This document shows, piece by piece, positions 21,505-26,449 of a stretch of DNA of 27,606 nucleotides. The stretch is from a virus, in the IMG/VR virus record IMGVR_UViG_3300032093_000678, positions 1 to 27,606 of that record. One strand, given 5' to 3'. The notes below the pieces were generated by a model. The model worked only from the letters and a program-made list of their open reading frames with translations, was not told the origin of the DNA and did not search any database. How positions within the stretch are numbered: the first letter of the stretch is position 1; the number at the start of each line of letters is the position of its first letter. The position numbers were made by a program, and so were the translations under genes.

Positions 21505-22953
21505 TCATGCCGGAATTTGTTCTTCGTCTTCGTCGTCTGATGATTCCTCAGGCATTTGTTGCATTTCGCGTGGCTCAGGCTGATCCATTTCGATCAGGCC
21601 ACCGTTTTGCGTAGCTTCTAGCTCTTCTTCTACGTCAAAGTCATCGCCTAGGACTTCCCCTTCGCTGAGCTGATCGAGCAGTGTCTTCTGTGTGATTGTG
21701 CCAGCTGTATAAAGCGCTAGCAGTGATTGGATCTCCTGCGGTTCAAGACGTGAGCCTAGGAAGTCACGGTTAACGTAACTGCTCCCAGCTTCAGGGATAT
21801 TCAGATACTGCGCATGATAAGTGAGGCAATTGTCGATCATGTCTTGCATGTTCTGCGCAATGACCATCATGGTGCTGTCACCTTGACTGCGGTCAATGCG
21901 TTTAGCCTCGGCGGTTTCAGCCGATAGCTTTTGACCAAGCACAGCTGACAAACCTAGTTCGTTGATCTGATAGGCAATCTGCTCTAGGCGCTTGAACTGC
22001 GCTTCAAAGCTGTTGCCACTGGGTTCGATGTACTCTGCCCGCCCTTCTGATGGGAAGGCGATAGCTTCACCAGGACCGGCTGATACTTCCTCGGCAGCAG
22101 ATGGGAAGCCGAAAAACGCCAGCATCGGCACGGCACTGATGTGAAGCTGATTATCTAGGTCAGATTGGATTTGGTATGCCTTCAGATTTAGCTCCGCGAT
22201 GTCTTCCATCGGCGGACGTGATTCCATGAAATTGACGCGGTTAGCGTAGGCAACGCTAAAGGGGATTTGTTCTAGCGTTGTGGTGCCGCTGTCATGGATC
22301 TGGAAGTCGCCAGCCTTTTCGTCGCGGCGGTGGATTTCAAAAGCGCCAGGGGTTAGTACTCTGACCTGTTCGACTTCTTTCTCTCCGTATAACCCATCAG
22401 GCACAACAACACGCTCCAACAGGCGAAGCTGGCTCAGTTGTTGAGCACCGTCTTTTAGTTCAGTGCGCCAGCCTAGGATGTCACGCGGCGTATAGCTGAC
22501 CCAATACGGTCTTCCGTTTTCACCACTAGTAGGTGCATCCACAAGCACGCCAACATGCCCGTAACGCACCATTTTGCGTGCGGTTTCATATGTCCAGACG
22601 TTGAGGTCGTTGCCGAGCAGGTCTACGTCAAAAAGCTGCTCGCGTACCAGATCAGATACATCGTTTAACCTGACCGGCTTGCGTGTCAACATGCCAGCGA
22701 GCATCCGCTCAAGCCGGACGTAATACGGTGCCAGCACTGAACGTGCCAGCCTGTTGTCGTAGCTTTCGTCTAGCTCGCGTGGTTCTTGCGGGAGGTAACG
22801 GCGATGGCGGCGCCGCATTTCGTAGGTGCCGCCGATCAGATCCTCAATCAGAACCCAGTGTGGTTCTTGGTTACGCCAAGCAGAATTGGGATCATTGACC
22901 TGCGCGACGCGACTGGTCAGTTGGCGGTCATAGTGACGAAAGCCGGAGTACAC
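21505..22953 (-). CDS. Portal protein (DUF4055-like)
   Basis: This 482-residue protein forms the dodecameric DNA channel and terminase docking site. It has ALVLRP-type portal features: YDNRLARSVLAPYYVRLERM, LAGMLTRKPVRLND, MVRYGHVGVLVDAPTSGENG, RPYWVSYTPRDILGW, then EQIPFSVAYANRVNFMESRP, ELNLKAYQIQSDLDNQLHIS and ETAEAKRIDRSQGDSTMMVI. This order is that of DUF4055 portals. The acidic C-terminus (EESSDDEDEEQIP) is ordinary for portals. The frame's only sensible start is a GTG at 22953, because a TGA lies in frame at 22978..22980 and the first ATG would remove 45 residues. No clear Shine-Dalgarno precedes it. It begins 29 bases after the cyAbrB stop. Confidence 0.85.
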   Translation of the reverse strand: MYSGFRHYDRQLTSRVAQVNDPNSAWRNQEPHWVLIEDLIGGTYEMRRRHRRYLPQEPRELDESYDNRLARSVLAPYYVRLERMLAGMLTRKPVRLNDVSDLVREQLFDVDLLGNDLNVWTYETARKMVRYGHVGVLVDAPTSGENGRPYWVSYTPRDILGWRTELKDGAQQLSQLRLLERVVVPDGLYGEKEVEQVRVLTPGAFEIHRRDEKAGDFQIHDSGTTTLEQIPFSVAYANRVNFMESRPPMEDIAELNLKAYQIQSDLDNQLHISAVPMLAFFGFPSAAEEVSAGPGEAIAFPSEGRAEYIEPSGNSFEAQFKRLEQIAYQINELGLSAVLGQKLSAETAEAKRIDRSQGDSTMMVIAQNMQDMIDNCLTYHAQYLNIPEAGSSYVNRDFLGSRLEPQEIQSLLALYTAGTITQKTLLDQLSEGEVLGDDFDVEEELEATQNGGLIEMDQPEPREMQQMPEESSDDEDEEQIPA

Positions 22954-22982
22954 CAGTTTTATCGCGCAGGCTATGGATCAGT

Positions 22983-23324
22983 TTAAGCAGCTACAGGTTG
23001 CTCGCTGTTAGCAGCAGAGAGGGTGACAGACTTGCGACCGAGTTTGATTTCAAACTCATCGCCGGGTTTGAAACCCATTTCCTGAACGTAGCCTTCACCG
23101 ATGGACAGTTTGCCGTTGAACTGCACTTTGGTTTTGTAGGTCAGGCTGCGACCACGTTTGGCGGCAGGCTTCAGTTCAAAGCCTTTTGCTTCGAGGAGTG
23201 CTTCGTAGAACTGGGTGAAGCAGAGCTTGTCGCCTTTGAGGTAGCCGCACTCGCGGACCAGCTCAGTTTTGCTGGCATCCTTGAGTTCTTTGACTTTGGC
23301 GAGTAGTTCAGGGCCGGTGAGCAT
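22983..23324 (-). CDS. Cyanobacterial AbrB-type (cyAbrB) DNA-binding protein
   Basis: This 113-residue protein matches the cyAbrB family in layout. Residues 1-14 are MLTGPELLAKVKEL; residues 15-60 hold the cyanobacteria-specific helical region (SKTELVRECGYLKGDKLCFT, YEALLEAKGFELK). After a basic RGRSLTY linker comes the AbrB-like beta-hairpin domain KTKVQFNGKLSIGEGYVQEM, then GFKPGDEFEIKLGRKSVTL (about 66-103). Host family members regulate nitrogen, carbon and other genes as transition-state regulators by binding DNA as dimers. The phage copy keeps all recognisable blocks and has a slightly shorter N-terminal loop. It sits between terL and the portal, where such a gene is unexpected, and has a candidate promoter of its own. 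Whether it targets host or phage genes is unknown. It is strong evidence for a cyanobacterial host. Confidence 0.85.
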   Translation of the reverse strand: MLTGPELLAKVKELKDASKTELVRECGYLKGDKLCFTQFYEALLEAKGFELKPAAKRGRSLTYKTKVQFNGKLSIGEGYVQEMGFKPGDEFEIKLGRKSVTLSAANSEQPVAA

Positions 23325-23351: not shown

Positions 23352-23380
23352 ACTATAGCTTTAATACAGCCTGATGCCAG
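23352..23380 (-). promoter_or_regulatory. Candidate sigma-70-type promoter for cyAbrB
   Basis: On the minus strand, CTGGCA (23380..23375, four of six matches to TTGACA) and TATAGT (23357..23352, five of six matches to TATAAT) are separated by exactly 17 bases. A start about seven bases beyond the -10 would leave a leader of some 20 bases before the cyAbrB ATG. It overlaps the end of terL. Support is by consensus only; no expression data exist. Confidence 0.4.
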
Positions 23381-24710
23381 TACCTCTGCCCGCGCCAGCG
23401 TGTAGCGGGTTGAACTCACGCCAGATGAGGTAGCCGAGCGCGTCATTCATGTGGTCATGCCCTGAATCCTTGTCAGGGTCGCCCTTTTCGGTATAGCACT
23501 GCAATTCTAGGCATTCGATCATCCGCTTACAGCTTGCGCTGATCTGCAGCCTCACCTGTCCTTTGCCGTTTTCTAGCAGTGCCTGCACAGCAGAAACCCT
23601 GTCTCTGACTGGTGGGTTGGCGCGTGGTGACTGGTTTGACATGCCGTAGGACTCCAAGATCTGGATGTCGGTTTGACTGGCGTTAGTGCTGCGGTTGCCA
23701 CCAGAGGCGTCAGGGTAGATGTAAATACGACGGTCTGGGTAGTGTGCTTTGATCTGCTGGGCTAGGCTATCGGTGTCGTGAGCACCGCTAATCTCGTCGA
23801 TCACGAACAGGGTGTTGTTGAGCTTGACGCCAATCACGGCGGACATGTTGCCGACGTTGAAGTCAACGCCAACGCGTAGCGGTTCGCGCTCAGTGTCTGG
23901 CAGCTTGCTGATGACGTGCTTGTTGCGGTCGAAGCGGTCGTAGACAGTGCCGGTTGTGAGGTTGACGAACTCGCCGTCTAGGTATGCCTTCAGCAGAGTT
24001 GGGTCGTAGTTTGCTTCGAGGCGCTCAATAAAGTCTGGTGGTAGGTGCGGGTTATCGACCGACCGCATTTTGATTAGCTTGCGATCCTGTCTGGTTTGAG
24101 CTTCCTCGCTGCCGAAGGTAGTCCACATCCAGCGGAAACCTTCAGGCGTTGACGCGGCACCGAACTGACGGACGTTGCCAGAACGTAAGCGACCAAGGAT
24201 TTTTGGGAATGCCTTGTTAGCGATGGCTGGGGTAACGGTATCGATCTCGTCTGCCAGCACCCAAGCAAGGTTCAGACCGATGATGCGTGACCAGTTCTCA
24301 AAGCTACGGCACAGGATTTTCGTGTCGCCACCTGGTAGGTGGAGCATGTACTCCGGCAGCGGTGATGCACGAAAGGTGTATGGGATCTCGTAGTGCTCCA
24401 GGAAGTCTTCGAAGTCGTTTTGCCAGATGTCGCGGATTAGCGGTCCGGTTGGTTCCATGACGCAACCGATAAAGCCCTGATTGGCAGCAGCGAGGGTAAC
24501 TGCCTTGGCTGCTAGGGCACGAGTTTTACCAGCGCCGTAGCCTGCGCTGATGCCGATGATCTGCGTTTGATCGTCGGTGACGAACGCTAGCTGTCCAGGG
24601 TGAAGGTCGCTGTGGATGCGCTGCAGCAGTTGGTCAGTGTCTATTAGCTCGCCGGAGTGGTTGAGCTGTTGTAGGACGTGACCTTCTGGCAGCGCAGACA
24701 GAATGCTCAC
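23361..24710 (-). CDS. terL: Terminase large subunit
   Basis: This is the ATPase-nuclease that packages DNA into the prohead. The Walker A motif SAGYGAGKTR lies at about residues 56-64 and Walker B AWVLADEID at about 149-157, with the coupling acidic DE pair. The RNase H-like nuclease part has VGVDFNVGNMSAVIGV (D near 283), IYIYPDASGG (D near 334) and the DHMNDALGYLIW helix (D near 423), so all three metal-binding acids are visible. The open frame could begin at TTG 24716, but GTG 24710 is preferred because it forms a GTGA overlap with the small subunit stop. The protein is then about 449 residues, normal for the family. Confidence 0.92.
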   Translation of the reverse strand: MSILSALPEGHVLQQLNHSGELIDTDQLLQRIHSDLHPGQLAFVTDDQTQIIGISAGYGAGKTRALAAKAVTLAAANQGFIGCVMEPTGPLIRDIWQNDFEDFLEHYEIPYTFRASPLPEYMLHLPGGDTKILCRSFENWSRIIGLNLAWVLADEIDTVTPAIANKAFPKILGRLRSGNVRQFGAASTPEGFRWMWTTFGSEEAQTRQDRKLIKMRSVDNPHLPPDFIERLEANYDPTLLKAYLDGEFVNLTTGTVYDRFDRNKHVISKLPDTEREPLRVGVDFNVGNMSAVIGVKLNNTLFVIDEISGAHDTDSLAQQIKAHYPDRRIYIYPDASGGNRSTNASQTDIQILESYGMSNQSPRANPPVRDRVSAVQALLENGKGQVRLQISASCKRMIECLELQCYTEKGDPDKDSGHDHMNDALGYLIWREFNPLHAGAGRGTGIRLY

Positions 24711-25030
24711 GAGCAAAGCTGCGCCAAGCGTGCAGCAGTATTGATGGCGCCGAGAGCGATGTGATACTGCCCAGCTTTGCGTGCTTCAAGCTGCAGTGTT
24801 GAGCATTGGGATAGAAGATCAGCGATCATCTGCGGGCGTTCTATGTCCCAGTCAGCACGCAGTTGATCACGTGCTAGTTGGAGGTATTTATCACAGGCGC
24901 GTTCGCTTACCCCCCAGTTTTCCGATGCAAATCGTATGCAATCTGAACGTCGCCCACCGTTAGCGATGATGCGAGCGAAGCGTTGAGCGCGAAGTTCAGT
25001 TTCTGCTTTAGTACCGCGATGAGCTGCCAT
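24707..25030 (-). CDS. terS: Terminase small subunit
   Basis: This 107-residue protein directly precedes terL and overlaps it by four bases (GTGA). It has a helix-turn-helix-like N-terminus (KAETELRAQRFARIIANGGR, RSDCIRFASENWGVSERACD), where the 'I..G..R.D.I....E.WGVSER....Y...AR' pattern is typical of phage TerS DNA-binding domains, followed by a helical oligomerisation region (LLSQCSTLQLEARKAGQYHI, ALGAINTAARLAQL). It recognises the packaging site in phage DNA and hands it to TerL. Its ATG shares a base with the stop of the Mom-like gene (TAATG), so expression is coupled with the modification genes. Confidence 0.78.
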   Translation of the reverse strand: MAAHRGTKAETELRAQRFARIIANGGRRSDCIRFASENWGVSERACDKYLQLARDQLRADWDIERPQMIADLLSQCSTLQLEARKAGQYHIALGAINTAARLAQLCS

Positions 25031-25842
25031 TAGGACACCTCTTGCGATGAAATGGAGCGAGGTGGTCGGTGATGCTCCGCCGCCGAGACGCTGGTAGCGC
25101 CTGTTGCCTGCTTACCTCGCGTGGTCATGCTAGCACCTTTATACATTTTGGCACCTACCTCTTCGATTTTAGAGAATGGGAGGATGGGTATGGTTAGGCG
25201 TTGTTTGGCTGATTGATCTATGAGGTAGATGTAGCGTAGCTGGAAGCCAGGAACGAATTTAGCGCCGATTGCTTTAAAGGGTGCGATTGTGGCACCGGAG
25301 TAGTAGGGGATGTTCCATTTTTTACATAGGCGACGACGTAGGGCGCAACCTTCTTTTGATGACCCGCCGTTTGTGATGGGGAGGGTAGCGTAGACCTCGC
25401 CATCAGGAAAGCGAAGCATGGATGTGTTGGGTTTGATGCCTGTGAGGTAAAAACCGCTGGCACGGTAGATAGTGCCATCACCGCACTGTGAACCGTCAGC
25501 GTATGAGACTATCCACTGGATGTGTGGGTATTGTTTGCGGATTAATTTGATGGCGATGGCGATAGCGCGTGATTCGCTGTTGCGTGGCAAGAGGTCATGA
25601 AACGCCATACGGTTGAGTTCTAGGAACCCGTTCCATGGCGTGTCACGGACGAATGCTTGTGTTTTGCGTTTGTCCATGCTGGGACCAAACTGCATTGCAC
25701 CCAGCAGTTGACCGTTTAGGTAGACGCCAAAGTGTAGTTGGCTATTGGGAACTACTTTGCTGGAGTAGTGAACGCGTTTGACCAGTTCGTTTGCGGCGGC
25801 TGCCTTGATGGGTTTAACGAGTATGTCTTTAGCGGAGGCCAT
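25030..25842 (-). CDS. Mom-like DNA-modifying GNAT-fold protein
   Basis: This 270-residue protein resembles the Mom family, which adds a carbamoylmethyl-type group to adenine in phage Mu DNA and blocks many restriction enzymes. Visible motifs are LVKRVHYSSKVVP (H25-Y26), LHFGVYLNGQLLGAMQFGPS, ELNRMAF (R78), NSESRAIAIAIKLIRK, then IVSYADGSQCGDGTIYRASG (D116, D122) and FYLTG. The later block LRYIYLIDQ and IPILPFSKIEEVG is also typical of Mom homologues. About 34 extra polar residues end the protein. The open frame extends to 25923, but I start at the ATG at 25842 (MASAKD...), preceded by GGGG. It overlaps the ParB-like gene by 14 bases and is coupled to terS, so it should be made with packaging genes. 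The exact modification is not deducible here. Confidence 0.78.
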   Translation of the reverse strand: MASAKDILVKPIKAAAANELVKRVHYSSKVVPNSQLHFGVYLNGQLLGAMQFGPSMDKRKTQAFVRDTPWNGFLELNRMAFHDLLPRNSESRAIAIAIKLIRKQYPHIQWIVSYADGSQCGDGTIYRASGFYLTGIKPNTSMLRFPDGEVYATLPITNGGSSKEGCALRRRLCKKWNIPYYSGATIAPFKAIGAKFVPGFQLRYIYLIDQSAKQRLTIPILPFSKIEEVGAKMYKGASMTTRGKQATGATSVSAAEHHRPPRSISSQEVS

Positions 25843-26449
25843 GATCACTACCCCATGAAAGGAAGAGTTCAGCAACACGAGCAAGTGCGTTGCCGTTGCT
25901 GTTTTCGTTGATGGATTCGTCAAAGGAGCCCATCGCCTTTGCTTTGTTTAGGGCTTCTTGGACGATTATGGCTTGGTCGTCATGGAGAGTGAACGCCATC
26001 TGCTGAAAGGGTTGCTTGTCGCCGTCGTCTAGTTCTGGGAATGCTGTTTCAGCGTCGTCCAGCAGGCTGTCTAGGTCGGTTTGCTCAAACCATGGACTGA
26101 TGTCGTGTTCGTTTGATAGATGACGAAGCATGTCCTGATCCCACTCGCTGAGATCGCTGGTGCGGTTATCCGCTAGGGCTAAACCGACTTTTTCGTCTTC
26201 TGACAGTCCGGTGCGACGTACGGCGATGATTTCGTCACCGTCGGTTTCGATGATGCGGACGTTTTTGATGCCTGCTGCTTTAGCCCCTTCGACGGTGCCG
26301 TTGCCGGCGAGGATGCGATTTTCTTCGTCGATGACGATAGAGCGTGCTGCACCGTAACGGTCGATGGATTCTTTGATCAGGGCAGCAGAGCGGTCGGTGC
26401 GCTTGCGGGCATTTTTATGGTCTGACTTCAGTGAATCAATGGATGGCAC
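25829..26449 (-). CDS. ParB-like (ParB/sulfiredoxin-fold) protein
   Basis: This 206-residue protein begins at GTG 26449 (MPSIDSLKSDHKNARKRTDR). Residues 1-95 carry the ParB N-terminal pattern: NARKRTDRSAALIKESIDRY, GAARSIVIDEENRILAGNGT, VEGAKAAGIKNVRIIE and KVGLALADNRTSDLSEWD. The GNGT stretch (49-52) corresponds to the nucleotide-binding GHGR/GERR motif of ParB-like domains, altered as in many phage ParB-like proteins. No HTH follows, so this is not a partition protein. The C-terminal half is acidic. Phage ParB-like proteins often accompany DNA methylases or Mom homologues. Its end overlaps the Mom-like start, so a joint role in DNA modification or protection is likely, though inferred. No clear ribosome site lies before the GTG. 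Confidence 0.78.
   Translation of the reverse strand: MPSIDSLKSDHKNARKRTDRSAALIKESIDRYGAARSIVIDEENRILAGNGTVEGAKAAGIKNVRIIETDGDEIIAVRRTGLSEDEKVGLALADNRTSDLSEWDQDMLRHLSNEHDISPWFEQTDLDSLLDDAETAFPELDDGDKQPFQQMAFTLHDDQAIIVQEALNKAKAMGSFDESINENSNGNALARVAELFLSWGSDHGLR

Follow-up and report, generated by a model that had tools for sequence, protein, structure and literature searches.

A cyAbrB-family protein encoded between terL and portal in a lineage of uncultured cyanobacterial viruses

Why should a tailed phage carry, between the genes for its terminase large subunit and its portal protein, a relative of the cyAbrB regulators of cyanobacteria? The question bears on the infection of picocyanobacteria, which are among the most abundant photosynthetic cells. 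The window analysed here is an entire IMG/VR record of 27,606 bases, and the findings made in it are confined to that part of the phage genome. Four of its genes define the locus:

22983..23324, minus strand: cyAbrB coding sequence, 113 aa (ORF calling and Pfam)
23361..24716, minus strand: terL, terminase large subunit, upstream flank (phrog_2, Terminase_6N/6C)
21505..22953, minus strand: portal, downstream flank (phrog_145)
24707..25030, minus strand: 107-aa protein adjoining terL, both genes being divergent in some cases (phrog_34910)

The preliminary description had recognised the protein as cyAbrB from the letters alone, and a profile search bore this out: PF14250 'AbrB-like', the cyAbrB family, matched the 113-aa product over the whole profile (Pfam, E = 1.1e-23, 83.5 bits against a curated cut-off of 25 bits, profile positions 1-70 of 70), and the protein is the exact carrier of the N-terminal block MLTGPELLAKVKEL... 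and of the block GFKPGDEFEIKLGRKS. The plus-strand reading of 22983-23324 is broken by a stop. Identity to host cyAbrB proteins is 52-64% across residues 1-102 or more, the invariant residues including G4, L7, R24, G27, F39 and Y40. Because the alignment with host proteins is nearly full-length and the position recurs in more than 100 contigs, the assignment lies far beyond chance. PHROGs contained no family matching the window cyAbrB, and an NCBIfam MazE match to the protein (0.073) was dismissed as a chance hit. The flanking genes, identified by both Pfam and PHROG, likewise place cyAbrB between terL and portal, as had been described. The head module of the window runs terL, cyAbrB, portal, then a Mu-F-like head protein and the major capsid protein (MCP), with gaps around cyAbrB of 36 bp on the terL side and 29 bp on the portal side. 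The 107-aa phrog_34910 protein is a possible small terminase.

Relatives were collected from IMG/VR by two scans, one with the window protein (best 80 of 189 relatives) and one with a Cyanobium cyAbrB (best 80 of 278), and the window genes were mapped onto the loci of these relatives to score gene order. The order terL-cyAbrB-portal was found in 135/135 scorable loci from these best matches, a set selected for containing cyAbrB and including some contigs that are near-copies; it persists where terL has been swapped for a version only 27-30% identical. Given this selection bias, loci were refetched through the MCP gene: among 40 loci containing all of terL, portal and MCP, cyAbrB occupies the junction in 25 and is absent from 15, so that about 60% of related phages carry it. 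The gene is thus position-fixed and lineage-wide in uncultured cyanobacterial viruses, and the single capture implied at the outset gives way to recurrence at a fixed position. Judged by kinship, the carriers would be siphoviruses of picocyanobacteria, related to KBS-S-2A. A survey of further terL-portal junctions had been proposed, and its outcome was divided, with cyAbrB common in uncultured relatives (25/40) and absent from the junction in the cultured relatives examined (KBS-S-2A, S-H1 and P-HS2). Their junctions hold an unrelated 85-aa ORF in KBS-S-2A, a dNMP-kinase-like ORF in S-H1 and a 30-bp gap in P-HS2, which rules out these cultured phages as carriers.

Phages lacking cyAbrB with intact flanks are common, and the gene is therefore dispensable; in several of them (L174, L175, L184, L218, L244) the terL-portal gap measures 6-60 bp. 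This bears on the possibility that the product is a virion or packaging accessory, a small basic DNA-binding protein that would aid packaging or be ejected with the genome. The location between terL and portal, the basic character of the phage protein and the proximity of other viral copies to capsid genes (L325, L342) or tail genes (a metagenomic podovirus) are in keeping with such a role; against it stand its dispensability in about 40% of relatives sharing the terL-portal pair, its clear homology to regulators and its own promoter-like element, and we regard this explanation as highly unlikely.

Presence of cyAbrB is patchy over the MCP and portal trees, and pairwise distances between neighbouring genes correlate only moderately, as expected for exchange by recombination within conserved flanks. 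The junction of terL and portal acts as a hotspot for insertions: HNH-like ORFs occur on either side of cyAbrB in some loci (L008:5327-5962, L013:5706-6215, L024:6524-6985). A passenger with no selected role, kept at the junction merely by recombination, would fit both the patchiness and the entry of HNH-like and other inserts on both sides. The coding sequence speaks against this: phage cyAbrB evolves under purifying selection, with a median pairwise dN/dS of 0.19 over 1265 pairs, and its core residues are conserved across a diverse clade, which makes an unselected passenger very improbable.

In a tree of phage and host cyAbrB proteins, which rests on few columns and is uncertain in its inner branching, all copies from the terL-portal junction together with L325 and L342 formed one clade (support 100/98). 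This clade is nested in the picocyanobacterial (Cyanobium/Synechococcus) group, apart from the cyAbrB1 and cyAbrB2 clades of other cyanobacteria. This placement shows that the gene was captured from a host, as the preliminary description had suggested. Host genomes with a cyAbrB match hold 2 copies in most typical cyanobacteria and 4-11 in four picocyanobacteria, showing an expansion of cyAbrB in some of the latter; in one sample of 39 genomes, 26 gave no match. In Cyanobium sp. ATX 6A2 (G001; L083, L245-L271) PF14250 matched 11 times, the usual number for typical matching cyanobacteria being 2.

The captured protein departs from the host form. Its layout comprises three parts:

residues about 1-50 of cyAbrB: N-terminal helical domain
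residues 56-60 of cyAbrB: basic linker with a GR motif
residues about 64-104 of cyAbrB: C-terminal AbrB-like beta-beta-alpha-beta-beta unit, the acidic tail being absent

All family core residues are retained in the phage copies. A short segment of the N-terminal domain is missing from most of them, and the acidic C-terminal tail of host cyAbrB from nearly all. The last 15 residues contain about 1.0 acidic residues in phages, 3.8 in picocyanobacterial hosts and 6.5 in other cyanobacteria, and net charge is +4.4, +1.6 and +0.8, respectively. The predicted model of the window protein is of moderate quality (pLDDT 71, pTM 0.40). Its C-terminal half (residues 57-111) best matches AbrB, Abh, SpoVT and MazE, at Z no higher than 4.5 and Foldseek E of at least 0.3 in a model with pTM 0.40, and its N-terminal half weakly resembles an Lrp-type HTH. 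These scores are too low to serve as sole proof of an AbrB fold, yet the predicted similarity agrees with the Pfam assignment.

A working cyAbrB could act at host nitrogen, carbon and stress promoters and keep metabolism favourable during infection, since every family core residue is retained. Host cyAbrB proteins do regulate genes of these three kinds according to references given in PMC11368403, and host-like copies recur in other phages. The consistent absence of the acidic tail, and mostly also of the N-domain segment, counts against such host steering, as this loss suggests an altered rather than an identical function; metabolic genes are also absent beside cyAbrB at the terL-portal junction. 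Taken together, this explanation appears unlikely.

The protein had also been described as part of the phage structural operon. Its strand and the spacing to its neighbours (36 and 29 bp) agree with this; a conserved -10-like box ahead of it points instead to a promoter of its own. Three promoter-like elements of the window are relevant:

23352..23357, minus strand: TATAGT, -10-like box of cyAbrB, located just past the terL stop and 27 nt upstream of the ATG, kept in relatives
23375..23380, minus strand: CTGGCA, weak candidate -35-like hexamer with a 17-nt spacer, inside the terL coding sequence
22980..22985, minus strand: TAAACT, weak -10-like box ahead of portal that shares bases with the stop codon of cyAbrB

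The window has 5 promoter-like sites, against an expectation of 3.9; the TATAGT box is among them and, taken alone, is unremarkable. The comparison between phages is more telling. A sigma70-like -10 box lies at a near-constant distance from the cyAbrB ATG, inside the preceding 33 nt, as TATAGT in the window and TATACT or TATATT in relatives. A match of at least 5/6 to the -10 consensus was found in 32 of 51 deduplicated cyAbrB upstream regions, against a mean of 2.0 and a maximum of 6 in shuffled sequences and at most 6 for other genes of the same contigs; only this threshold separates cyAbrB, and that of at least 4/6, at which portal itself scores high, was not used. Part of the conservation may be coding constraint, because terL ends over the box, its last codons overlapping it in 14/40 upstream regions; where no such overlap exists, 9/26 still carry a -10-like hexamer, against about 1.2 in shuffles. 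In 7 of 19 loci with a long terL-cyAbrB gap, a terminator-like hairpin lies between terL and the -10 box. The comparative data thus support a predicted promoter-plus-gene cassette. On the minus strand of the window, no terminator-like site was found between cyAbrB and portal, and the cassette is therefore termed 'moron-like' only.

The TAAACT-like box before portal occurs in phages with cyAbrB and in many that lack it (loci with the box include L204, L218, L220, L228, L230 and L242) and is a possible head-operon promoter. In KBS-S-2A it sits behind a terminator-like hairpin. One could imagine that cyAbrB, located just before this box, is a late-gene regulator that switches the head operon, as the near-invariant location upstream of portal, with the box in between, would allow. 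Close relatives without cyAbrB nevertheless share the head operon and a similar box, and cyAbrB is found elsewhere in the genomes of other phages; control of late genes is, on this evidence, distinctly unlikely.

What is known of the host proteins suggests another role. In Synechocystis, the nucleoid-associated protein cyAbrB2 coats AT-rich regions and keeps sigma factors out, and nucleoid-associated behaviour is known for cyAbrB2 only (PMC11368403); a guarding function against foreign DNA is only a suggestion of that study (eLife paper, PMC11368403). A nucleoid-protein and anti-silencing role suits this knowledge of cyAbrB2 better than the steering of metabolism or of late expression. Expression of the phage protein would be early or uncoupled from that of the late genes, and the protein would adopt the swapped-hairpin dimer of AbrB proteins, joined by an additional N-terminal domain resembling an HTH. 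It would bind AT-richer DNA broadly, and would mix with or displace the host's H-NS/Lsr2-like nucleoid proteins cyAbrB1 and cyAbrB2; silencing of the phage genome would thereby be relieved and global host expression shifted. G+C content is about 52.5% in the phages versus 66.3% in the loci of the nearest cells that carry cyAbrB, the host being assigned by kinship. DNA binding, mixing with the host protein and anti-silencing are steps that we infer, the last of them by analogy, and the protein is probably used to override host control of gene expression during infection. That it is specifically a nucleoid-protein homologue competing with host cyAbrB, encoded by a moron-like cassette in a siphovirus lineage, is the reading we favour, tentatively and at somewhat less than even confidence.

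The closest known relatives are the host cyAbrB1 and cyAbrB2 proteins (PF14250; Sll0359/Sll0822, CalA), with which the phage copies share family, core residues and two-part layout; the host proteins possess the acidic tail and the N-domain segment and are less basic, whereas the phage copies sit in a head module. Lsr2 of actinobacteriophages (PMC8612146) offers a parallel, in that a host nucleoid-associated protein was taken up, synteny is group-specific, phage sequences fall inside host clades and phage G+C is lower; Lsr2 belongs to an unrelated family, and phage cyAbrB differs in its constant location between terL and portal and in stemming from one dominant capture. Phage H-NS homologues and H-NST-type truncations similarly represent copies of silencers on phages and other elements, and N-terminal-only H-NS forms act as antagonists (PMC7074111). 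As in the morons of tailed phages, an extra gene with a promoter-like sequence of its own separates two virion genes that are direct neighbours in related phages; the window cyAbrB differs in having no terminator-like site after it, and some relatives have one upstream.

The setting of cyAbrB in other viruses is varied. In INPHARED, the window protein had no match at 1e-3, and host cyAbrB as query returned only partial N-terminal matches (P-TIM68, B23, S-B28 and kin) and one divergent AbrB (S39-C11). The latter, BAQ94494.1 of the uncultured podovirus MedDCM-OCT-S39-C11, is annotated as 'AbrB family transcriptional regulator' (PF14250, 1.3e-6) and adjoins tail genes; like the window protein, it is a phage-encoded PF14250 member with virion genes as neighbours, and it differs in being very divergent, with only 11 relatives found, and in belonging to another phage group with tail-gene neighbours. 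In L325 and L342, from another phage group with a different portal, a cyAbrB of the viral clade follows a fused protease-capsid gene. Host-like copies follow an endolysin gene in viral contig L307 and stand beside RecT/exonuclease in viral contig L299; some host-like copies in viral contigs could be host or prophage sequence. A 44 kb phage-like contig from an assembly of a picocyanobacterial family holds a very divergent antisense cyAbrB (L384:3936-4274, minus strand) between portal and scaffold. No prophage with a close portal was found in 13 genomes of the genus; a portal match was present in 3 of 300 family genomes, and of these three the one at 56% is accompanied by the antisense cyAbrB. 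In view of these varied placements in other phages, with the antisense copy speaking for its autonomy, cyAbrB behaves like a moron.

N-terminal-only forms occur in cultured cyanophages, as a stand-alone protein of 52 aa or joined to further sequence. P-TIM68 gp074 (L366:1501-1659) is a 52-aa protein matching the N-terminal part of cyAbrB only, and S-B28 (L368:1480-2040) and B23 (L367:1414-1842) encode the N-terminal domain without the C-terminal part. The P-TIM68 protein resembles an H-NST-type truncation in this respect; its fold differs. Such proteins are possible natural antagonists.

The absence of a characterised phage example, noted at the start, holds for the literature search, which took in few subscription papers and turned up no account of cyAbrB in phages; one metagenomic podovirus 'AbrB' is annotated. 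Phages with copies of host nucleoid proteins are a known phenomenon; the involvement of the cyAbrB family, in altered form and at a constant position, appears new to us. Only recently has cyAbrB2 been described as a cyanobacterial nucleoid-associated protein that may silence foreign DNA (PMC11368403). An altered cyAbrB kept at a fixed site suggests that the cyAbrB layer of host control matters in infection, and makes xenogeneic silencing and counter-silencing open to test in picocyanobacteria; the terL-cyAbrB-portal arrangement is also a marker for a large group of uncultured cyanophages. A wider proposal, that cyanophages repeatedly recruited cyAbrB and that one widespread picocyanobacterial siphovirus lineage fixed a tail-less, more basic form, expressed from its own promoter, as a dedicated counter-silencing factor, is doubtful at present; if true, this factor would be the cyanobacterial counterpart of phage Lsr2 and H-NS and would mark cyAbrB as a xenogeneic silencer.

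Neighbouring modules are also exchanged. Two terL versions, 27-30% identical, occur in otherwise near-identical neighbourhoods (window 23361-25030; L004, L005, L017, L032), often with a divergent 107-aa neighbour, the breakpoint lying between terL and cyAbrB. Further upstream lie two overlapping genes, for a Mom-like DNA modification protein (PF25680, 8e-52) and a ParB-like protein (window 25030-25923 and 25829-26449). The Mom slot is occupied in L006 and L024 by a 285-aa ORF, which in L006 matches a TET-associated glycosyltransferase (PF20691); given this replacement in relatives, the position seems to be an exchangeable slot for DNA hypermodification.
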